From [Clostridium] symbiosum (GTDB lineage: Bacteria; Bacillota; Clostridia; Lachnospirales; Lachnospiraceae), in NCBI GenBank assembly GCA_021769625.1, contig JAETSN010000033.1, forward strand, positions 1 to 43,033: a stretch of DNA of 43,033 nucleotides, written 5' to 3'. A program made the position numbers and the translations under genes. Numbering within the stretch: position 1 is the first letter of the stretch; the number at the start of each line of letters is the position of its first letter. Shown here piece after piece: positions 14,775 through 35,072 of the stretch. The notes under the pieces are model-generated. The model had not been told where the DNA came from and searched no databases. It saw only the letters and a program-made list of their open reading frames with translations.

Positions 14775-15044
14775 TCACTTATCCCCATAATGGCCTCTGC
14801 AATGCGCAATATAAATCCGCCCGCTTTCCATATGATAAACCAAGCGATCCTTCTCATTAATACGACGGCTGTACTCTCCCTGCAGATCACCTGTAAGCGG
14901 TTCTGGCTTTCCGATTCCCTGCATACAGCCATTACGCTCAATATCTTTGATAAGCTGATTAACACGTTTCAACGTTTTTTTATCTTGTGCCTGCCAATAG
15001 AGATAATCCTCCCATGCATCATCTGACCATATTTTCTCACTCAT
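14775..15044 (-). CDS. yoeB: YoeB/Txe-family toxin (ribosome-dependent mRNA interferase)
   Basis: 89 aa, the standard length. The family signature is clear: IWSDDAWEDYLYW at the start, KPEPLTGDLQGEYSRRINEKDRLVYHM in the middle and IAHCRGHYG at the end, which retains the Glu, Arg, His and Tyr positions of the RNase site. YoeB toxins cleave mRNA on the translating ribosome. The gene overlaps the antitoxin gene by eight bases. The partner is a RelB/DinJ-type antitoxin rather than YefM. Confidence 0.93.
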   Translation of the reverse strand: MSEKIWSDDAWEDYLYWQAQDKKTLKRVNQLIKDIERNGCMQGIGKPEPLTGDLQGEYSRRINEKDRLVYHMESGRIYIAHCRGHYGDK

Positions 15045-24649: not shown

Positions 24650-26074
24650 CTATTTTTTCTTATTCTTTTTTTTGACTTCTTTTATATCAGTTACTTCATG
24701 CTCCGTATTTACATCATCCCGTTCATCTACGCCTTCATCATACTCCCTTAGCCCTGCAAGAATAGCAATGTTTTCCTCCTGACAATTAGCTGTTTCTGTG
24801 AATTCTCCCACTTCCCTCTCTTTATTCGATATTTCTCCCACTAATTCAATACCAGTACTTTCCATTTCTAAATTTTTACCACTTGAAATACTTCCGGATA
24901 AAAATAACGCCCCCTTCGCACTGATCGGCCCAACCATTTCATACAATACGGATGAAGACAAAATAATTGTAAGCATTAATTTTCCGGTTTCCTCCGGCAG
25001 CATTCTCTGCCCCAAAAATGCCAGTCCGATTGCAACCCCGGCCTGTGGAATCAAAGCCAATCCCAAATAATTTCGAATCTCTTTCGTTGTTTTCATTGCC
25101 AGACAGCTTATATATGTTCCCAAATACTTGCCGACTATACGAATCAAAAAATAGCATACGCCAATTGCACCAACTGTTTTTAGCGCATCAAGATCCAGAT
25201 TCATTCCTGACACAATAAAAAAGATCGACATAACTGGCGGTGTAAAATTATTAATCTGGCGAAACAATTTTTTATCCATCGTCAAATTAATATATACCGC
25301 CCCAAAAACCATGCAGGATAGAAGCGGCGAAATGTCTACTGCTGCACAGATTCCGGAAATCCCTAACAACATTGCAATAACCAGGATCAATCTGTTATCA
25401 CGGCTTCTTGCAGGAATTAAAAGTCTGCTTAAAAAATAACCACAGAATGCCCCTAATGCAATCATTAAAATATTATACACTATTGGAATTGTTATATCAC
25501 TTACAGACAATTTCCCCGATGCGCTTCCGTTCACAATAGCTGAAACAATACTGAATGCCAGCAAGCAGACCACATCATCCATAGCCACAACCTGCAAAAG
25601 CGTATTTACAAATTCACCTTTTGCCTTGTACTGATTGATCGTCATCATCGTACTGGCGGGAGCAGTCGCCGTGGCAATTGCCCCCAATATCAATGCAAAT
25701 CCCCATTCCAGCGAAAAAATTAGTTTCAAAAGAATTGTAACCAATATCCCCGCAGCAAGTGCCTCACTGATCGTAATAAAAATAATTTTCTTCCCGGTCT
25801 GCATAAGTACTTCTTTTTTAAAAAATTTCCCCACCCCGAAAGCTATAAAAGCAAGCGCCCAGTCACTGACAAATCCCATTGTCTTGATAATTGAGGTCGG
25901 AATCATATTAAGGCAATACGGCCCTATCAAAATCCCTGCCAGAATATATCCGCTTACTTTTGGCATATTCAACGTATTGGTTAATCTTGTCATAATAAAT
26001 CCGGAAAACAATATAATGGAAAGTACCAAAAGTATTTCTGTTTCCTGATTCAAGCCACTCAGAAATTCCAGCAT
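24650..26074 (-). CDS. CPA2-family cation:proton antiporter
   Basis: 474 aa with about 12 membrane segments in the first 390 residues, matching the KefB/NapA-like Na+/H+ exchanger domain. Paired aspartates in AMDDVVCLLAFS (166-167) follow ATATAPASTMMTINQ and are the ion-binding pair of electrogenic members. Unlike KefB, there is no TrkA-N nucleotide-binding domain. Instead an acidic, Lys-rich-ended cytosolic tail runs from about 395 to 474. AGGAG is some 13 bases from the ATG, longer than ideal. It lies 54 bases after the GDPD gene and is probably the last gene of that operon. Confidence 0.88.
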   Translation of the reverse strand: MLEFLSGLNQETEILLVLSIILFSGFIMTRLTNTLNMPKVSGYILAGILIGPYCLNMIPTSIIKTMGFVSDWALAFIAFGVGKFFKKEVLMQTGKKIIFITISEALAAGILVTILLKLIFSLEWGFALILGAIATATAPASTMMTINQYKAKGEFVNTLLQVVAMDDVVCLLAFSIVSAIVNGSASGKLSVSDITIPIVYNILMIALGAFCGYFLSRLLIPARSRDNRLILVIAMLLGISGICAAVDISPLLSCMVFGAVYINLTMDKKLFRQINNFTPPVMSIFFIVSGMNLDLDALKTVGAIGVCYFLIRIVGKYLGTYISCLAMKTTKEIRNYLGLALIPQAGVAIGLAFLGQRMLPEETGKLMLTIILSSSVLYEMVGPISAKGALFLSGSISSGKNLEMESTGIELVGEISNKEREVGEFTETANCQEENIAILAGLREYDEGVDERDDVNTEHEVTDIKEVKKKNKKK

Positions 26075-26128: not shown

Positions 26129-26962
26129 TCAGCGCTTGCCTGTTTTTTTAAGATATTCTCCAAGTTCCAATACCCAGTCTGTCTGAATAATATCCATACC
26201 TTTATCAATCAGCCACTTCCAGCCCAAATCAGGTCCCTGAAGTAAAGATATATCATCCCCATGTCCTACGCATAAATTGTTATTTACTCCCATGTCAAGT
26301 GCGTTACACCATAACTTTATGCCTCTATTGTGCATGTCATCCACAAACTCTTCAGAAATCAGATAATCACTTTCAGTAGTAATAAATATTTCTACTATCT
26401 TTACAGGAATTTCTTCCAACACCTGATAAAGCGCTTCTAAACCATCATCATTTTTTACTACCGGCACATATAAGGGCTTATACCCGGTTTCTTTGAGCCA
26501 TTTTATATCTTTTTCACAGGGCACCGGATTTTTCAAAAGAATCTGATCTTCCATATCATATTCCAGAACTTTCTCATATACCTCATCCAGATAATCCCTG
26601 CACTTATCAAGATTGATATAACATTTTCCCTTTAATGCCTGAAGCAGCTCATCCAGAGTATTCAGATACCGCCCGGACGGCTCTCCAATAGAATTCAGAA
26701 GCTGAATATTTTTTACTTCTTCATATGTATATTTATCAATATCCCCCTCTTTTCTCAATATACGTTCTGCCGTTTCATCATGAAATAATATAAAATTTCC
26801 GTCTGCAAGTTTCGTAATGTCTGTTTCAACAATATCTGCCCCTGCATTCAAAGCATTATAGAATGCATCCAATGTATTTTCCGGTATGCAACCACCAAAA
26901 CGTCCTCTGTGTGATGCAATCCATATATGTTCTCCGATCGTTGAATGAATTAAGTCCTTCAT
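26129..26962 (-). CDS. Glycerophosphodiester phosphodiesterase (cytoplasmic, UgpQ-like)
   Basis: 277 aa, GDPD TIM-barrel. The conserved residues are present: His18-Arg19 in ASHRGRFGG, Glu28 in PENT, Glu46 and Asp48 in VETDI, and His61 in LFHDE. It hydrolyses glycerophosphodiesters to glycerol-3-phosphate and an alcohol. There is no signal peptide, so it acts on imported substrate. It follows an ABC importer with UgpA/UgpE-type permeases, an arrangement like ugpBAE-ugpQ. The gap to the permease gene is 16 bases. This context makes glycerophosphodiesters the best guess for the imported substrate. Confidence 0.9.
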   Translation of the reverse strand: MKDLIHSTIGEHIWIASHRGRFGGCIPENTLDAFYNALNAGADIVETDITKLADGNFILFHDETAERILRKEGDIDKYTYEEVKNIQLLNSIGEPSGRYLNTLDELLQALKGKCYINLDKCRDYLDEVYEKVLEYDMEDQILLKNPVPCEKDIKWLKETGYKPLYVPVVKNDDGLEALYQVLEEIPVKIVEIFITTESDYLISEEFVDDMHNRGIKLWCNALDMGVNNNLCVGHGDDISLLQGPDLGWKWLIDKGMDIIQTDWVLELGEYLKKTGKR

Positions 26963-26978
26963 ATTACAATTTCTCCTT

Positions 26979-27827
26979 TTAACCTTTCACCGCTCCTCCG
27001 GTCAGCCCTTCCACCATATAATTCTGTAAAAGAATAAACAGAGACAAAACCGGTAATATAAGCATCGTTCCATAAGTCATTACCATATTCCATAACAGCC
27101 CATACTCATTCATAAAGTTAAACATTCCCGCTGTCGCCGGCCATTTCGCGTAGTCCGATACAAATGTCATAGAATAAATCAAATCATTCCATCCAAACAC
27201 AAAGCAGAAGACAGCCGTCACACAAATTCCGGGGTATGTCAGCGGACACATAATTTTAATAAACGCCTTAAAATTTGAACAGCCATCGATCAGTGCTGCT
27301 TCTTCAAGCCCATTCGGCAATGTTACAAAATACGTCCGCAAGGTAAGAATTGCAAACGGAACGCTTGATGCCGTATTCGCCAGAATCGGCGCAAACAGCG
27401 TATTAGTAAGATGTACTTTATTAAACATGATAAATAACGGCGTCAATGTCAGCGTGGGCGGAAGCATCTGGCTTACAAAGAAGATCAGCATCATTATGCT
27501 GTGCCCCTTCACTTTAAATCTTGCCATACTATACGCAGCCGGGACAGAAATAACAGTCGATATCAGCATGGATGCAGCGGCAATCAAAAAGCTGTTGACA
27601 AATGAATGCCCAACCCTGTAATTTCCCCCAAAAATCGAAGCATAATTTTCCAGCGTCGGATGCGAAGGTAAAATCTGCCCTGCCTGCGTAAAAATATCCG
27701 ATTCTGTTTTAAATGAGGCTGATATCATGATAACGACTGGAAGCAAAAAGCATATGCAAATTGCAACAGCAATTATATTGACCAGAACTTCATTCCGCAT
27801 ATTTTTGTTCAATATTCTTCCTTTCAT
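26979..27827 (-). CDS. ABC transporter permease (MalG/UgpE-like)
   Basis: 282 aa with six predicted membrane helices and the carbohydrate-uptake-1 permease signature: NTLFAPILANTASSVPFAILTLRTYFVTLPNGLEEAALIDGCSNFKAF, in which EAALIDG is the ATPase-coupling EAA loop. The ATG at 27827 overlaps the TGA of the preceding permease by one base; a TTG one codon earlier is a less likely start. With the other permease it forms the membrane heterodimer. No ATPase gene is in the locus, so a shared MsmX/UgpC-type ATPase encoded elsewhere must power it. Confidence 0.92.
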   Translation of the reverse strand: MKGRILNKNMRNEVLVNIIAVAICICFLLPVVIMISASFKTESDIFTQAGQILPSHPTLENYASIFGGNYRVGHSFVNSFLIAAASMLISTVISVPAAYSMARFKVKGHSIMMLIFFVSQMLPPTLTLTPLFIMFNKVHLTNTLFAPILANTASSVPFAILTLRTYFVTLPNGLEEAALIDGCSNFKAFIKIMCPLTYPGICVTAVFCFVFGWNDLIYSMTFVSDYAKWPATAGMFNFMNEYGLLWNMVMTYGTMLILPVLSLFILLQNYMVEGLTGGAVKG

Positions 27828-28735
27828 CAATACATATCCCCCTCATTTTTAGAAAGCCTCAGCGAGACCAGTGAAAAGACAAACAATATCAGCAGTAATA
27901 TATTTGCCGCGGCTGCTCCCAGACTAAAGTTTCCCGACGTAAACGCAAAGCGATAGGAAACTGATGCCAGTACTTCCGTCGCGTTTACCGGTCCTCCGCC
28001 AGTCCCTATATAGACAAGGTCAAATACCTTAAACGTTCTGATCAATCCCAGTGTAAGCACCGAAATAATAGTAGGCTTCATCAAAGGGAGTGTAATCATG
28101 CAAAACTTCTGACGCCTGTTTGCACCTTCTACATCCGCACTTTCATATATTTCTTCCGGCAATGTACTAAGCCCTGTAGCTAATAGCAACATATTAAAAG
28201 GCGTCCCGATCCAGATATTGGCAATGATCAATGCCGCCATAGCACTCATCGGTTCTACCAGCCATGCAATCGGCTGATCAATGATCCCGATTGCCATTAA
28301 AGCACTGTTGATGATTCCACTTTGCTCACTAAATAAAAATTTCATCAAAAGACCGACAACTGTAGAGGGCAGTAACCATGCCACCAACATAATCCCCCGC
28401 AAAAACTTTGCAGTTTTAAACTTTTTTGCAAAAAACAACGCGAATGCAAAACCCAATATAAATTGGAAAACAATCGAAAGAACCGTATAAATCAAGGTGT
28501 TTTTCAAGCCGACGAAAAACAGTTCAGAATGTTCTCCAAAAAGCAAATCCTTATATTGCTGAAGCCCTACAAATCCATATGTCTTTGATGCAAAATTCGA
28601 AATTTCCAAATCCTGAAACCCAAGTGTAATATTATACCCTATCGGATAAAGGCAAAAAACAGCCATATAGATAATTGCAGGAATAATACATAAATATGCA
28701 AATAATTTTTTTGATTTATCGACCCCCAATATCAT
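27827..28735 (-). CDS. ABC transporter permease (MalF/UgpA-like)
   Basis: 302 aa with six predicted helices. LFAYLCIIPAIIYMAVFCLYP is the typical N-terminal segment, and ATGLSTLPEEIYESADVEGANRRQKF contains the EAA-type loop. The start at 28735 follows AGGAGG by six bases. The longer frame beginning 81 bases upstream would run back through the intercistronic hairpin and has no ribosome site, so it is rejected. Partner of the MalG/UgpE-like permease downstream. Confidence 0.92.
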   Translation of the reverse strand: MILGVDKSKKLFAYLCIIPAIIYMAVFCLYPIGYNITLGFQDLEISNFASKTYGFVGLQQYKDLLFGEHSELFFVGLKNTLIYTVLSIVFQFILGFAFALFFAKKFKTAKFLRGIMLVAWLLPSTVVGLLMKFLFSEQSGIINSALMAIGIIDQPIAWLVEPMSAMAALIIANIWIGTPFNMLLLATGLSTLPEEIYESADVEGANRRQKFCMITLPLMKPTIISVLTLGLIRTFKVFDLVYIGTGGGPVNATEVLASVSYRFAFTSGNFSLGAAAANILLLILFVFSLVSLRLSKNEGDMY

Positions 28736-28752
28736 AATCTGCCTCCTAAATA

Positions 28753-28792
28753 CAGAAGCGTTTACCTGAATGATCATAAGCAAACGCTTCTG
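28753..28792 (-). terminator. Intercistronic hairpin after the binding-protein gene
   Basis: An 11-bp perfect stem (CAGAAGCGTTT with AAACGCTTCTG) around a loop of about 18 bases, followed by TATTT. The weak T tail suggests message protection or partial termination between the binding protein and permeases rather than full stop. Confidence 0.6.
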
Positions 28793-28800
28793 CTTTCTTA

Positions 28801-30117
28801 CTATTTTATATTCCAATATGCTGCATTTTTTTCATTTGCTTCTTTTAATGCTTCCTCCGGTGTCTTTTCTCCGGTTACAGCTCCCTGAATTGCTGTCTGC
28901 ACATTTGCTGAAAGATCCGGCCAGAACGGATTTACACGAGATACAGCATTTGGCATAGAATCTGCAAATATTTTCATTGGCTCTTTTTCCCAGAATGTAT
29001 TCTCTTCCACATCTCCCCGAACAGGAATACAACCTACAGCCTCTGCATAAGATGCCGCCTGTTCTTTACTTCCGATGAATTTTAAGAATGCCAATGCTGC
29101 ATCTATATTTTCGCAATCTTTTGAAATGCCAACATTGTATCCGCCGATAACTGTTATCGATTCCCCATTTGCATCTTTTGCAGGCATCGGCACGACTCCC
29201 CATTCGAATTCTGCAGAACTAAGAGAAGAAATTCCCCAGGATCCAAATTCTATCATAGCAACCTTTTCACCCAGAAAAGCTTTTTCCAGATCCCCGTGAG
29301 CCCAGTTGACTACCTCTTTGCTCATATATCCTTTCTCCACCAACCCCGATACAAAGGTAAGCGCTTCTATTGCCTCGTCCGAACCCAAATCAGAAATATC
29401 TCCGCCGGCACTGTAAAGCCATGGTATATACTGGAATGTACCTACTTCACTCTTCGGAAGTGCCATCCCAAATCCATATACACCATCTTTGGTCAGCGTT
29501 GCCGCAGCCTCTTCGAGTTCTTCCCATGTTGTCGGAGGTTCTACGCCAGCTTCCTGCAACATTTCTTTGTTGTAATAAACAGCCAGATTATTACTGTACC
29601 ATGGGAGTCCGTAAATTTTACCATCATAAGTTACACTGTTTAAGGGTCCCTCATAAAAGTTTTCGATTTCACCCCATTCATTCATATAATCTGTAATATC
29701 AAGAAAATAACCATTCGCTGCAAATGTAGCAAAATCAGGGCTGTCAAATACTAATACATCCGGAAGATTTCCTGCCAGCATATTAATCTGCATATTCTTC
29801 TTTAATTCCGAATTTACCATATAAGATGCTTCCAGCTCAACATTCGGATATGCTGCTTTAAACTCATCTACCAGTTTTATAAACCCTTCTTTATCATTGC
29901 CTTCGCAATGAACAAAAGTTATCTTTCCTGATATCGGTTTTTCAGCCGTTTCGTCAGTTTCCGCTCCTTCTTTGCTCACTTCACTGTTCCTGTCGGTTTC
30001 ATCTGCCGCCTCATTAACCGTATCCTCCGGTTTATCTGTTGCCCCAGACGACGAACATGCAGTCAGAGAAAAACACATCATCCCTGCAAGTACCCCTGCT
30101 AATATTCTTTTTTTCAT
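28801..30117 (-). CDS. ABC transporter solute-binding lipoprotein (SBP_bac_1 family)
   Basis: 438 aa. Lipoprotein signal to SLTAC with Cys21, a polar acidic tether to about residue 60, then an SBP_bac_1 fold (KITFVHCEGND; LAGNLPDVLVFDSPD; KIYGLPWYSNNLAVYYNKEML; PTTWEELEEAAATL; GEKVAMIEFGSWG; FLKFIGSKEQAASYAEA). It is first in its operon, before the two permeases and the phosphodiesterase, and is expected to bind sugars or glycerol-phosphate compounds. AAGGAGA precedes the ATG. Its promoter overlaps an operator-like palindrome shared with the divergent gene. The regulator encoded nearby contains a domain of the same family. Confidence 0.93.
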   Translation of the reverse strand: MKKRILAGVLAGMMCFSLTACSSSGATDKPEDTVNEAADETDRNSEVSKEGAETDETAEKPISGKITFVHCEGNDKEGFIKLVDEFKAAYPNVELEASYMVNSELKKNMQINMLAGNLPDVLVFDSPDFATFAANGYFLDITDYMNEWGEIENFYEGPLNSVTYDGKIYGLPWYSNNLAVYYNKEMLQEAGVEPPTTWEELEEAAATLTKDGVYGFGMALPKSEVGTFQYIPWLYSAGGDISDLGSDEAIEALTFVSGLVEKGYMSKEVVNWAHGDLEKAFLGEKVAMIEFGSWGISSLSSAEFEWGVVPMPAKDANGESITVIGGYNVGISKDCENIDAALAFLKFIGSKEQAASYAEAVGCIPVRGDVEENTFWEKEPMKIFADSMPNAVSRVNPFWPDLSANVQTAIQGAVTGEKTPEEALKEANEKNAAYWNIK

Positions 30118-30154: not shown

Positions 30155-30183
30155 ATAGTATCACCTATATTGAAACGTGTCAA
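30155..30183 (-). promoter_or_regulatory. Promoter of the ugp-like operon
   Basis: A perfect -35 TTGACA (30183-30178, minus strand) and TACTAT (30160-30155) are 17 bases apart. The -35 box lies inside operator-like site A. Confidence 0.85.
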
Positions 30184-30184
30184 T
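30169..30184. promoter_or_regulatory. Operator-like site A
   Basis: ATTGAAACGTGTCAAT is a near-perfect palindrome with the central CG common in LacI-family operators. It covers the -35 box of the binding-protein operon. Site B (30295) matches it at 14 of 16 positions. Confidence 0.75.
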
Positions 30185-30264
30185 AGTTTTTCTTTGTTTT
30201 TTTATCATTTCAAAGATTTTTTTGCAAAAAACAATAAAATCTACTATCTTTGCAATGATTTTTC

Positions 30265-30293: not shown

Positions 30294-30294
30294 G

Positions 30295-30310
30295 ATTGTA
30301 ACGTATCAAT
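30295..30310. promoter_or_regulatory. Operator-like site B
   Basis: ATTGTAACGTATCAAT matches site A at 14 of 16 positions and sits over the predicted transcription start of the HAD gene, where a bound repressor would block initiation. Confidence 0.75.
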
Positions 30311-30326
30311 ATTGGAGGATATTATA

Positions 30327-31124
30327 ATGAAGCACATTAATCATTTATTTTCAGACATGGATGGAACATTATTGAATTCCCAAAAACATGTTTCACAAAA
30401 AAACATTGAATCCATCATCAAATTCACCGATAAAGGAGGGCACTTTGCTGTCGCTACCGGACGCAGCCCTGAAATCTCCCTGCCCTTCCTAACTGGTATA
30501 CCTGTTACCGCACCGTCCATCCTATATAATGGCGCCGGTATTTATGACTTCTCAACGTGCAAATTTCTTCATAAAGAATTTCTTCCAAAAGAAATCCTAA
30601 AACAGATTCTTGACATTTCCATTCAGGAATATCCATATATCTGCATAGAAGCTTTTGCCGAAGGACCAATTCAGCTTCTTAACAAGGACTGTATCATTGA
30701 CCACTATATCACCGACGAAAAACAGCCCTACAGATTTGCTTCCTATCATGCAGAAAATCAGTATATGAAATTTCTCCTTTATGCAGAACCCTCCGCATTG
30801 CAGAATGTCTGCAAAAAATTGCATCCGATTATGAAAAACAAAGTTTCATATACCTTTTCTTCTCCATTTTATCTGGAAATTCTTCCACTTAATGTTTCTA
30901 AAGGAGCTGCTTTAAAATGGATCTGTAAAAACTGTAAAATAGATATTCAAAATGTAGCAGCGATCGGGGATTTTGACAATGACTGTGAGATGCTTCGTTA
31001 CGCCGCCTTAAGCGCCGCTCCTGACAATGCTTCAAACGCTGCCTTGAATGCTGCTGAATATATAGTCTCATCCAACGATAACTCCTGTGTCAGCAATTTT
31101 ATCGAAAAATGTATACTTGCATAG
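30327..31124 (+). CDS. HAD-IIB (Cof-type) phosphatase
   Basis: 265 aa. The HAD nucleophile motif FSDMDGTLL (Asp10, Asp12), motif III lysine in VSKGAALKW, and motif IV GDFDNDCEML identify a Cof-type sugar-phosphatase. GGAGG stands nine bases before the ATG at 30327. It diverges from the transporter operon and precedes the fusion regulator, sharing the control region. A role in dephosphorylating glycerol-3-phosphate or a related product of the phosphodiesterase is plausible, but the family is too broad to fix a substrate. Confidence 0.88.
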   Translation: MKHINHLFSDMDGTLLNSQKHVSQKNIESIIKFTDKGGHFAVATGRSPEISLPFLTGIPVTAPSILYNGAGIYDFSTCKFLHKEFLPKEILKQILDISIQEYPYICIEAFAEGPIQLLNKDCIIDHYITDEKQPYRFASYHAENQYMKFLLYAEPSALQNVCKKLHPIMKNKVSYTFSSPFYLEILPLNVSKGAALKWICKNCKIDIQNVAAIGDFDNDCEMLRYAALSAAPDNASNAALNAAEYIVSSNDNSCVSNFIEKCILA

Positions 31125-31179: not shown

Positions 31180-31208
31180 TTGCCATTAAAGTGACTTTCC
31201 GCTATAAT
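31180..31208 (+). promoter_or_regulatory. Promoter of the LacI/solute-binding fusion gene
   Basis: TTGCCA (31180-31185) and a perfect TATAAT (31203-31208) are 17 bases apart. A third, weaker operator-like site overlaps the expected start. Confidence 0.8.
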
Positions 31209-31266: not shown

Positions 31267-33441
31267 ATGCCCACAATCAAAGATATCGCCCGTGCTGCCG
31301 GTGTTTCTCAGGGAACCGTATCTAATGTTTTAAACGGTCGCGGAAATGTCAGCGTAGAAAAAATAAATCTTGTTCAGAAAGCCGTCAAAGATTTGGGATA
31401 CCAGACCAATGAAAAAGCCCGATTATTGAGGGAAGGCGTATCAAAATCTATCGCTGTTATCCTTCCGGATATCACCATACCATGCTATGCGCAGCTTTAC
31501 AGCGAACTTCATGATTTTGTTCTGCAGAAAGGCTATTCTTTGCAACTTTATCAGACAAAAGATATGCCGGCTATCGAGAAATCAATATTAAAAAATATTG
31601 AATCTTCCATTATAAGCGGTATCATCTCTGTTACATGTCTTTCAGATGCTGCAAAATATTATAACACACAGTTAATGAAAGGTATCAGCAAAATTTTTGC
31701 AATACGAAAACCTGATATGAGCTGTAATTTTATTGGTTTTGATTACACCGCAGCAGGGAGAGAGCTTGCTGATTACATAACTGAAATGGGGTATAAATCT
31801 GTCGGGCTTTTTTCCGGACCTCTCAGCTATTCTAATGAGGCGGATTTTATAAGCAATTTTCATAATAACTGTGCACACACCCTCCAAAACTATATACATG
31901 TTGAAGCAGAGTACGTTGAAATAAATCAAAAATCCTTTGAACTGGCTTCTGTATCCCTTTTACCGGAATGCATTATATCAACCAGTCCCATATATGTAAA
32001 TGCTTTAAAAAATGCATATCATTATAGGGGAATTGAACATCTTCCCGAATTTATAGTTCTCACATCAACAAGTTCGCTAAAGGGAACATATTATACGGAA
32101 TATCAGTTTGACTTCAGGAAACTTGGGCAGGATCTTGGCCGGCAAATTTTTATGCTGAACAAAAATGTTCCCTGCACTCAAAAAGTCTTAGATAAAACAG
32201 GATTTTTTCCCATCCGGAATTACCCTGCAATTCTGCCTGTTCACCAAACCCTGAATTTACTTACCATTGCCAGTCCAACCACTACTGCATTAACGGATAT
32301 TCTTCCGCTCTTTCAAAAAGAGACCGGCATTCAGGTCAATGTCACATCTCTTGATTACGATGAAGCTTATAACACCATACAATCATTTGGCGACAGCGGC
32401 GGTTACGATATTTTCCGCATGGACATGGCATGGGGACAATGGTTTGCTGACAAATATCTAACCCCATTTGAATCTATCTCCAATTACTCGGATGATCTGT
32501 TTCAAAATATCCTTCCGGATCTTACAGAGGATTACTGTAGATTTAATGGAGTACTATGTGCTTTTCCTCTGGATCCCAGTGTTCAATTACTATTTTACCG
32601 TAAAGACCTGTTTGAAGACTCTGTCATAAAACGCGGTTATTATGAAAAATATAAAACCGAATTAAAAGCACCGGATACATTTGAAGAGTTAAACAAAATT
32701 GCCAAATTTTTCACAAAAAAATATTCACCACTGTCTCCGACGGATTATGGTATAACCATGGTAACCGGAAACATCGGCATGGCTTCATGCGAATTAATAC
32801 CCAGACTCCTTGCTTCTCAGACAGCCTCACCGGCTGCCCCGCTTATAATGAATAATGCTGAAAGCCATAGCGCACTCCAAAATTATCTGGAATGCTCTGA
32901 TTATTGCAAAAATACTGATAATATCTGGTGGAATCAAGCCGTTGAAGAATTCGCATCGGGAAATACCGCCATGACTATTATTTTCGCTAATCATGCCTCC
33001 AAGATTATTGGCAATCAATCTACACGTGTTGCAGGTAAACTTGGATTTTCAACTATTCCTGGCGGAAAGCCGCTCCTTGGAGGCGGAATATTAGGCATTG
33101 CAAAAGTTTCAGATAAAAAAGAAGCCGCTATGGAATTTTTCAACTGGTTATCCAGAAATGATATTTCTCTTATGATAACGCTGCTTGGGGGAACATCCGG
33201 AAATGCAACAACCTATTCAAGTCCCGAAATCATCCAGTATTTCCCTTGGATGCCCGAAGTAAAACATAATTTTTCTTTCGGCGTAGGACGAAAAAACTGG
33301 TTATCTTCAAAACATATCATTGAAGAACGTGCTATTGAACAAATTTTAGGTATTTCCATCCGCAATGCATTAACTGGAAATATCTCCATTGAAAAGGCTT
33401 TAGATTATGCCCAAAATTCTATTAACCGGCTTATAGAATAA
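31267..33441 (+). CDS. Fusion regulator: LacI DNA-binding and sensor domains plus SBP_bac_1 solute-binding domain
   Basis: 724 aa, about twice a normal LacI protein. Residues 1-25 are a LacI helix-turn-helix (TIKDIARAAGVSQGTVSNVL); 60-320 form the LacI effector domain (SIAVILPDITIPCYAQLYSEL; GYKSVGLFSGPLSYS). From about 329 to the end lies a complete SBP_bac_1-type domain (LTIASPTTTALTDILPLFQK; YDIFRMDMAWGQWF; GNTAMTIIFANHASKII; FFNWLSRND). There is no signal peptide, so the solute-binding domain stays in the cytoplasm. GGAGGTG precedes the ATG. It is the likely regulator of the divergent importer and may sense the same ligand the importer carries, or a processed form. The stop codon is followed by S2, which ends in its terminator. 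Confidence 0.9.
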   Translation: MPTIKDIARAAGVSQGTVSNVLNGRGNVSVEKINLVQKAVKDLGYQTNEKARLLREGVSKSIAVILPDITIPCYAQLYSELHDFVLQKGYSLQLYQTKDMPAIEKSILKNIESSIISGIISVTCLSDAAKYYNTQLMKGISKIFAIRKPDMSCNFIGFDYTAAGRELADYITEMGYKSVGLFSGPLSYSNEADFISNFHNNCAHTLQNYIHVEAEYVEINQKSFELASVSLLPECIISTSPIYVNALKNAYHYRGIEHLPEFIVLTSTSSLKGTYYTEYQFDFRKLGQDLGRQIFMLNKNVPCTQKVLDKTGFFPIRNYPAILPVHQTLNLLTIASPTTTALTDILPLFQKETGIQVNVTSLDYDEAYNTIQSFGDSGGYDIFRMDMAWGQWFADKYLTPFESISNYSDDLFQNILPDLTEDYCRFNGVLCAFPLDPSVQLLFYRKDLFEDSVIKRGYYEKYKTELKAPDTFEELNKIAKFFTKKYSPLSPTDYGITMVTGNIGMASCELIPRLLASQTASPAAPLIMNNAESHSALQNYLECSDYCKNTDNIWWNQAVEEFASGNTAMTIIFANHASKIIGNQSTRVAGKLGFSTIPGGKPLLGGGILGIAKVSDKKEAAMEFFNWLSRNDISLMITLLGGTSGNATTYSSPEIIQYFPWMPEVKHNFSFGVGRKNWLSSKHIIEERAIEQILGISIRNALTGNISIEKALDYAQNSINRLIE

Positions 33442-33577: not shown

Positions 33578-34378
33578 TTATTCCGCTATAAACCCGGACG
33601 CTTTATCCGCTTCCGAAAGTTTAATATCATAAATGGTTATCACATCAAACTTATTCTCTTTTTTCCACTCCGACACTTTGGAGTAACTGGTAGAACCGCT
33701 CAGTTCCAGAACGATCGTATCGGTCGTTGTACCCTGGCCGTTCGCTGAGGTTTTCCCGCCCATGCCTTCCGCTGCCAGCACGGGAGCGCTTTCCGCTGCC
33801 GTTCCTTTCTCGGAATATATGATCGGGCTCTCTATGCCGCCCTGCGCCGTGGTAAGGTATCTGCGATTTCCATCGCTTATCTTCCCCTGCACATACAGCT
33901 GCTTTCCTGTCGGTCCCGCCACATTCTCCGCTGCGATCTTGATCTGGTCTTCCGTTGTCTCAACACCGTCATAATATAATTTGATCGCTCCGGTAAGACC
34001 TACCGACAGGGCGGCATCACTTTTGTTCTCAAACTTGATCCTCGCCGGCGTCAGCGTCGTATTGGCGTTCAGTCCCAGGCTGCTGTTCGTAAGGCCGTAG
34101 GGATTCGCGATGATCCTGCCGGACTGCGTGATCGTGAGGGTAAGATGAACCGTCTCCACCTCTCCCTTAAAAACGATCTGATTGCTGCCATCTGTGGGAC
34201 GCAGTATCTCATCATTCCCGCTGATCGTAGTCGTCACATTGTTCCCGCTGATATCGTTTCCGCTTATGTCGTTTCCGCTCACATCATTTCCGCCCACCGC
34301 CGGCGCCGCCCAGACTGCCATGGATGCGCCGAGCAGCATCGCTATCGCGAACGATATGCTGATCAATTTTTTCCTCAT
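33578..34378 (-). CDS. Secreted protein with SGND repeats, function unknown
   Basis: 266 aa with a signal peptide (cleavage near AVWAAPA, residue 25). Right after it come degenerate repeats of GGNDVSGNDISGNDISGNN (about 29-55), then a beta-rich domain of roughly 200 residues without a recognisable family (VHLTLTITQSGRIIANPYG; PARIKFENKSDAALSVGLTG; DTIVLELSGST). AGGAGG precedes the ATG. It follows the anchored protein gene by 58 bases, so the two are one operon. The fold hints at a cell-surface or appendage protein; nothing in the sequence proves it. Confidence 0.65.
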   Translation of the reverse strand: MRKKLISISFAIAMLLGASMAVWAAPAVGGNDVSGNDISGNDISGNNVTTTISGNDEILRPTDGSNQIVFKGEVETVHLTLTITQSGRIIANPYGLTNSSLGLNANTTLTPARIKFENKSDAALSVGLTGAIKLYYDGVETTEDQIKIAAENVAGPTGKQLYVQGKISDGNRRYLTTAQGGIESPIIYSEKGTAAESAPVLAAEGMGGKTSANGQGTTTDTIVLELSGSTSYSKVSEWKKENKFDVITIYDIKLSEADKASGFIAE

Positions 34379-34436: not shown

Positions 34437-34973
34437 TTAATCCGTCACGTAAATATCCACAATGACCGCATTGTCGCCCGCCAACGCGCCCTCCTCGTCC
34501 ACGCAGGAGTGTATCAGCGTTCCCCGGTAGGTTCCCGGCTCTAACTCTTTTTCAGCTGTAAAGGACTCAATATGGCTTCCGCGGGGAATGATCCCGGATA
34601 CATAGATCTCTTCCGCCATCTGATCATTCTCGTCATTTAAATAAATCTGGACATACATGTCCTCATAATAATTCGCTTCACTGTTTCCTATGTAGCAAGC
34701 GGCGTTTTTTCCGCCCGTAATATGGATATCCCTGTCATACAGCGTTGTAAAGGAGAACGGATCATTTATTTCTATCCCTTCTGCGTCCTCCTCATTTGTG
34801 ACGACACCTGCCTCCATCCCTATCCTCCGCATTGTCGCCGTCTCTGTATCTTTGTGGTTTAATATGTAAAATATGGCGATACCGCCAGCGATGACAACAA
34901 CCGAAAGCACACCGATCATGACGGTCTGCAGTGATATTTTTGACTTCCTCTTTTCATTTTTCTGTTCTTCCAT
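34437..34973 (-). CDS. Membrane-anchored extracellular protein, function unknown
   Basis: 178 aa: short basic cytosolic end (MEEQKNEKRKSK), one membrane anchor (about 18-40), and an extracellular domain (ITGGKNAACYIGNSEANYYEDMYVQIYLND; ELEPGTYRGTLIHSC) that looks beta-sandwich-like. Family not recognised. The start at 34973 is preceded by GAGGTG; the in-frame ATG 21 bases earlier lacks a site. It is the first gene of a pair with the SGND-repeat secreted protein and may help display or assemble it. Confidence 0.65.
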   Translation of the reverse strand: MEEQKNEKRKSKISLQTVMIGVLSVVVIAGGIAIFYILNHKDTETATMRRIGMEAGVVTNEEDAEGIEINDPFSFTTLYDRDIHITGGKNAACYIGNSEANYYEDMYVQIYLNDENDQMAEEIYVSGIIPRGSHIESFTAEKELEPGTYRGTLIHSCVDEEGALAGDNAVIVDIYVTD

Positions 34974-35072
34974 CTCACACCTCTCATTTTTCATTTGTTT
35001 TGCGGGGGCCTTAAGCCCGCCGGCCCAAGTCCCCCTGTATGAACCAATGTCATTTAGCTAACACCTCAGTCA

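Follow-up and report, generated by a model that had tools for sequence, protein, structure and literature searches.

Transcription factors that carry solute-binding domains are already known. SgrR and DsvR, as described in the available part of PMC13060122, join an N-terminal helix-turn-helix (HTH) to a domain of the SBP_bac_5 family, and the same text links SgrR to phosphorylated metabolites. Chimeras of a DNA-binding domain and a periplasmic binding protein have been engineered on the same joining idea (accessible part of PMC6079105), and a survey, in the portion available, notes that Pfam profiles for solute-binding proteins (SBPs) pick up some regulators and cytosolic proteins as well (PMC9602780). 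The LacI/GalR regulators (LacI, PurR, CcpA) combine an HTH, a hinge helix with conserved Ala/Leu and an alpha/beta effector region, and, according to the available text of PMC4052901, recognize even palindromic operators with a central CG in local control of an adjacent uptake operon. Here we describe a regulator that resembles them in these respects, encoded in a 43,033-nucleotide stretch of [Clostridium] symbiosum contig JAETSN010000033.1 (hereafter the window). The reading frame, Pfam matches and a structure model indicate that this gene (31267..33441 including the stop codon, + strand) encodes a LacI-SBP fusion of 724 amino acids, which, with its added SBP, departs from the two-domain plan of approximately 330–350 amino acids that is the norm for LacI/GalR. 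We found no description of such a fusion among the papers listed by searches of the open-access literature (PubMed Central, titles and beginnings of abstracts, at most 20 papers per search), and fusion terms gave no match in the available text of Ravcheev 2014 (PMC4052901).

We propose, with a probability of roughly 0.58, that this protein is a one-component cytoplasmic repressor of the LacI type, in which sensing has shifted from the LacI pocket to the C-terminal SBP, and from which a phosphodiester-type ligand would release the operator. Architecture, loss of LacI ligand residues, SBP fold, conserved cleft, operator and gene context were all computed, and from them we infer the role of a dimer scaffold, the ligand and the polarity of release.

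The N-terminus of the fusion is the LacI HTH itself (residues 3–48; 31273..31410, + strand), which matches PF00356 with 54.9 bits and is reproduced in the model. It is followed by a hinge helix at residues 49–56, with A51 and L54 (alignment of 99 fusions and model), by a degenerate LacI effector domain without the ligand Arg and Asp at approximately residues 61–312 (31447..32202, + strand; Pfam, alignment and model), and by a CUT1-type solute-binding domain, the proposed sensor, at residues 326–724 (32242..33438, + strand; Pfam, alignment to 1eu8 and fold search with the model). Both halves are folded in the monomer model, and the two-lobe SBP fold spans the whole of the 326–724 domain. SBPs dominated the best 50 rows of each of two fold searches, from which LacI chains were absent and in which no row covered the LacI half alone. 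The effector half scored under the Pfam cutoff, and SBP_bac_5 was not among the 13 Pfam families that matched the protein at E <= 1. No strongly hydrophobic segment is present, indicating that the protein is neither exported nor lipid-anchored as SBPs are. These results bear out the first-pass annotation, which had described a cytoplasmic regulator without a signal peptide, composed of a LacI HTH, a LacI effector domain and an SBP domain from about residue 329 onward.

To place the effector pocket in a family context, the alignment combined 99 fusions, non-redundant at 90% identity (reduced from 122, with duplicate genomes under two names dropped), with controls, 20 ordinary LacI proteins from the window's own genome; removing two fusions cut by contig edges left a set of 97, divided into clade A (60 loci) and clade B (37 loci). 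The Arg of the R..G motif (position 194), which we take to be the ligand Arg R197 of LacI, was found in 20/20 controls and in 0/99 fusions, which instead carried Phe (54) or Cys (23). The Asp of the G.D motif (position 266), presumably the ligand Asp D274 of LacI, occurred in 18/20 controls versus 2/99 fusions, and the Asp of the ND motif (position 241) in 13/20 versus 1/99. Sites 246 and 274 of the LacI family are marked as ligand sites in the available part of PMC3877293. The DNA-binding parts were retained, with A51 in 95 and L54 in 98 of the 99 fusions. Because the ligand Arg and Asp have been lost across the family, the simplest reading is that there is a single working sensor, the SBP, and the old effector domain would probably act as a scaffold for dimerization and signal transmission.

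It had been suggested in the first-pass annotation that two ligand sites work together in AND/OR control, and these counts do not support that suggestion. Two working sensors, or a LacI pocket re-purposed for some other ligand, are in our judgment unlikely, but several observations favor them and weigh against a sensor shift. Besides the folded state of both halves in the model, position 146 (which we take to be LacI D149) is acidic in 72/99 fusions (E 51, D 21; controls D 11/20), Asp 159 is kept in 82/99 fusions and 18/20 controls, and two residues are specific to the family, E104 (98/99 fusions versus 9/20 controls) and R147 (82/99 versus 7/20). A second fusion in the same genome, a clade-B paralog of 775 amino acids that is 27% identical to the window fusion, has an effector domain that still scores well with Peripla_BP_1/3. 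The kept residues could mean that another ligand or partner is bound there, and with acidic 146 and Asp 159 often retained, the LacI pocket may conceivably have been re-purposed. Against this stand the lost Arg and Asp, the Ile that occupies position 146 in the window fusion itself, the sub-cutoff effector score, and a mean pairwise identity over 30 sequences that is lower in the effector half (24.0%) than in the SBP half (29.8%).

Positions D386, G606, Q440 and R513 of the SBP cleft are strongly conserved among the fusions, and other cleft positions vary by clade in step with gene context. D386, G606 and R675, all conserved in the fusions, align to the Asp/Gly/Arg ligand triad of 1eu8. UgpB holds its phosphate by two Tyr and two Ser (PMC12718374); in a profile alignment S438 of the fusion falls in the 'NSS' loop of UgpB, and the other three phosphate residues could not be placed with confidence. 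We suggest that the fused SBP would close on a ligand, either imported or already present in the cytoplasm, and that the operator would thereby be freed. Two findings count against this proposal. The free SBPs in the alignment carry Asp 386 in 14/22, Gly 606 in 12/22 and Arg 675 in only 2/22 cases, suggesting that the triad is not general and that the Arg may be misplaced in a variable stretch. In addition, R384 and the gene neighborhoods both follow the two clades, and their association is therefore not independent of descent. It is conceivable that the SBP domain is a protein-protein module offering a surface to another cytoplasmic protein, or a mere stabilizer, since its ligand binding is a prediction and SBPs normally dock on permeases, so that an interaction surface exists in principle. 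We consider this account improbable. The permease face on which SBPs dock lies outside the membrane, making docking from the cytoplasm impossible, and the four conserved cleft residues, along with the tracking of other cleft positions with clade and gene context, argue for a small-molecule sensor.

Evidence for a shared operator came from de novo palindrome counts in clade-A intergenic DNA, in which palindromy was the only assumption and which returned TTGAMAC.GTKTCAA. This would be an even palindromic operator with a central CG near the target promoter, of the kind expected for LacI/GalR, to which the HTH and hinge helix would bind. A matrix trained on clade A itself placed a site upstream of a gene in 53/60 clade-A loci, 10/37 clade-B loci and 0/20 ordinary LacI loci. 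With held-out halves of clade A, the site was found in 27–30 of 30 test loci (upstream of a gene in 25–29), and in 1–3/30 Markov-shuffled loci. Pattern matching in the window identified predicted operator 1 (TATTGAAACGTGTCAATA, 30168..30185, with a mismatch-free core at 30170–30183), the sole mismatch-free match to the 16-base pattern WTTGAMACGTKTCAAW in the 4.08-Mb assembly, and the weaker predicted operator 2 (GATTGTAACGTATCAATA, 30294..30311, core 30296–30309), which has two mismatches and lies just before the HAD gene. A third match in the window, with one mismatch (14959–14972), is far off, 0.47 matches being expected by chance. Two-mismatch sites numbered 15 genome-wide versus 14 for the reversed control. 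The single exact site, together with the lack of a genome-wide excess, suggests a local regulator.

A promoter-like element of the SBP operon (TTGACA-17-TACTAT, 30155..30183, - strand) has its -35 hexamer inside operator 1, and another (TTGCCA-17-TATAAT, 31180..31208, + strand) precedes the fusion gene and bears no operator match. The clade-A operator is asymmetric, and its TTGACA half can act as a -35 box. At clade-A sites before other genes, the half nearest the regulated gene reads TTGACA in 37/49; at sites before the fusion gene, the TTGACA half is toward the gene in 1/10 and faces away in 8. A -10 element stood at the right spacing behind the operator in 39/59 clade-A sites, against a background rate of 0.33. 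This orientation and spacing form the pattern expected of a repressor covering a -35 box, and we propose that the repressor would occupy the -35 box of the operon comprising the SBP, two permeases and a glycerophosphodiester phosphodiesterase (GDPD), and also the site before the HAD phosphatase gene. The suggestion that the regulator serves the importer beside it stood up: the gene adjoins the importer and probably controls it, predicted operator 1 overlapping the promoter-like -35 box of the operon, and sensing of an intracellular form of the transported molecule is plausible.

Some features of the operators are less favorable to this proposal. The clade-A matrix also scores in 10/37 clade-B loci, operator 2 is weak and off any obvious -35 box, the HAD gene showing no clear promoter, and -10 elements are only moderately enriched behind the operators. 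The position of operator 2 would also suit the same architecture and sensor with the opposite polarity, in which ligand would strengthen the hold on the operator or the protein would act as an activator at certain promoters; a PurR-type polarity does exist in the LacI family (available part of PMC3877293). We nevertheless think such a polarity has a small chance of being correct, as operator 1 covers a -35 box and the target genes encode uptake and hydrolysis, for which the usual logic is induction by the substrate. The window operators are 126 bp apart, or about 12 turns, but the spacing differs at other loci, and paired operators in six loci read by eye showed no fixed phase; we therefore make no claim of looping. 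In clade B, 7/37 loci have another site under a strict pattern, reading TCTAAAC.GTTTAGA or close to that (TCTAAACGTTTAGA) (L136, L137, L143, L144, L147, L152 and L164), and HTH residue 20 is Cys or Tyr in 6/7 of these.

The genes next to the fusion point to the ligand of the proposed repressor. The importer SBP (28801..30117, - strand; SBP_bac_8/1 by Pfam and NCBIfam) is 28% identical to E. coli UgpB in alignment, and it is followed by ABC permease 1 (27827..28816, - strand; Pfam), ABC permease 2 (26979..27830, - strand; Pfam) and a GDPD-type gene with a DUF4996 domain (26129..26962, - strand; Pfam, NCBIfam), an order equal to that of E. coli ugpB-A-E-(C)-Q. A Na+/H+ exchanger-type gene (24650..26074, - strand; Pfam) is possibly the end of this operon. 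On the other side of operator 1 lies a gene for a Cof-type HAD phosphatase (30312..31124, + strand; Pfam, NCBIfam), whose start is more likely at the ATG at 30328, behind GGAGG, to judge from the sequence. A repressor acting on a ugp-like operon and before a HAD phosphatase gene suggests a glycerophosphodiester-type ligand, and the most likely candidates would be a glycerophosphodiester or some comparable phosphodiester, or else the first product made from it. DUF4996 was C-terminal in all four GDPD proteins scanned (window 26129–26962, L060:5960-6796, L087:2060-2884 and L095:9347-10177), and it may be a marker of this type of uptake system. Downstream of the fusion gene, the frames at 33578–34378 and 34437–34994 (- strand) had no Pfam match at E <= 0.001.

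Gene context was counted up to six genes from each fusion. Gene calling simply took the longest frame, and the labels held when spot-checked by Pfam on samples. A GDPD or MBL-fold gene occurred in 44/60 clade-A loci (GDPD 27, PhnP-like MBL 9, RNase Z-like MBL 12), a figure that leaves out calcineurin-type genes; MgtC occurred in 18/60 and an MFS protein of the nucleoside-symporter type in 8. None of these four was seen in the 37 clade-B loci, where ribose-type SBPs (28) and URO-D-like genes (21) were found, and none of them, nor URO-D, in the 20 ordinary LacI loci of the same genome. Clade and gene context are not independent. Because the names PhnP and RNase Z come from NCBIfam matches below the cutoff, the MBL genes are presumed to encode phosphodiesterases. 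Speaking against a phosphodiester ligand, 16/60 clade-A loci lacked GDPD, MBL, MgtC and that MFS within six genes, some of them being short contigs. MgtC-family membrane proteins recur in clade-A cassettes (for example L057:6830-7513, L121:3815-4525 and L088:6179-6724). On E. coli plasmid NZ_CP100527.1 (L212:4849-10175) a compact cassette of MgtC, MFS and MBL hydrolase genes stands beside a divergent LacI-SBP fusion, with ATTGGAACGTGTCAAT, one mismatch from the operator pattern, in the divergent gap and another, two-mismatch match within the fusion gene. The neighbors of the second fusion of the window's genome (contig C98, L002:1441-3768) are a pair of URO-D-like genes and an ABC importer of the ribose type.

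The fused SBP domains appear to have a common origin. The SBP halves of 98 fusions formed one group with 0 of 22 free SBPs inside (support 0.964), an interim tree likewise kept 98 fused SBPs together with no free SBP inside, and 97 fusion SBPs again formed one group when compared with 38 free SBPs (support 0.931; all quoted supports are from FastTree). A single fusion event behind all LacI-SBP fusions is the simplest reading of these trees. The nearest free relatives (n=19), taken from a phylum-wide scan with the SBP profile, have hydrophobic, export-type N-termini, judged by eye, and an ABC permease no more than two genes away in 18/19. The fused domain had been taken for the regulator's own copy of the SBP of the neighboring importer; this was rejected, as the two have Pfam families in common yet barely align (best E 0.045). 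That the importer SBP is of the same class holds in the window to the extent of those families, but it fails as a general rule, the transporter elsewhere often being PhnS-like, ribose-type or MFS.

Related fusions are patchily but widely spread. A scan of 299 genomes of the bacterial family scored up to three candidates in each genome and one of 398 genomes across the phylum up to four, so the tallies are lower bounds. At least 28/299 family genomes matched at E <= 1e-25; 27 had frames >700 amino acids, and one (G115) had only a free lipoprotein-like SBP. At least 35/398 phylum genomes matched the SBP profile at E <= 1e-40, with frames >700 amino acids only in the window genome and one other (G306) and frames of 417–565 amino acids in the rest. 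Within the genus, the fusion was found in 1/9 genomes at E <= 1e-30, that of the window, suggesting a patchy spread. A contig scan with the window protein alone as query gave no matches. Another contig scan yielded 363 confirmed loci, of which the best 80 were kept, and 80/80 were fusions, from Bacillota, Spirochaetota, a Calditrichales genome and Gammaproteobacteria. With a threshold of E <= 1e-30, 51/72,556 plasmid records matched, 48 of them from Escherichia, 2 from Proteus and 1 from Rhizobium, the last in the SBP part only, and 46/5426 E. coli genomes carried the fusion gene, in 44 plasmid and 2 chromosomal places. An assembly artefact or a recent accidental fusion, which the 1/9 count in the genus might suggest, is refuted by the 99 non-redundant fusions from many assemblies, the conserved operator and the single SBP group, and we give it practically no credence.

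We consider it slightly better than an even chance that these proteins represent a natural sensor swap, that is, a phylum-crossing LacI branch that has lost key pocket residues and senses with a cytoplasmic fused SBP, its main branch answering to phosphodiesters and governing importer, phosphodiesterase and MgtC cassettes, some of them on E. coli plasmids. If this is true, evolution can give an allosteric repressor a new sensor while leaving its body in place, by keeping the DNA-binding and dimer parts, changing the old pocket and adding a transport protein. The main branch would then hold the first LacI-type repressors known to us that answer to phosphodiesters. Related fusions in several bacterial groups often stand beside genes apparently for the uptake and cleavage of phosphate-containing molecules, raising the question of which phosphodiester is imported by the window's organism and through cassettes of this kind on E. 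coli plasmids. The finding also corrects a misleading label, as most of the E. coli plasmid regulators go under the name 'extracellular solute-binding protein': this annotation was given to 14/15 plasmid matches listed, the remaining one being a 'hypothetical protein', and to 10/10 E. coli genome matches listed.

Unlike LacI/GalR regulators, the fusions lack the pocket Arg in 99/99 and the pocket Asp in 97/99 cases and carry an extra SBP domain of 400 residues, and their predicted effector is a phosphodiester, not a sugar. SgrR and DsvR differ in using another SBP family, SBP_bac_5, and in the absence of a LacI effector domain. The whole-domain fold resembles that of CUT1 SBPs (5iai, the trehalose/maltose-binding protein 1eu8, SmoF, UgpB), and by alignment the Asp/Gly/Arg positions may do so too, but the fused SBP lacks a signal peptide and forms part of a DNA-binding protein. 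E. coli ugpBAECQ, which takes up glycerol-3-phosphate and glycerophosphodiesters, has its SBP, two permeases and GDPD in the order seen in the window, whereas the window operon lacks an ATPase gene and adjoins a LacI-SBP regulator. The design that synthetic biology has attempted by hand occurs here in about 100 natural examples, which differ in operator (two types or more) and in gene context (two kinds); compared with the engineered chimeras in the accessible part of PMC6079105, these fusions are natural and widespread, and they keep the LacI effector body in between.
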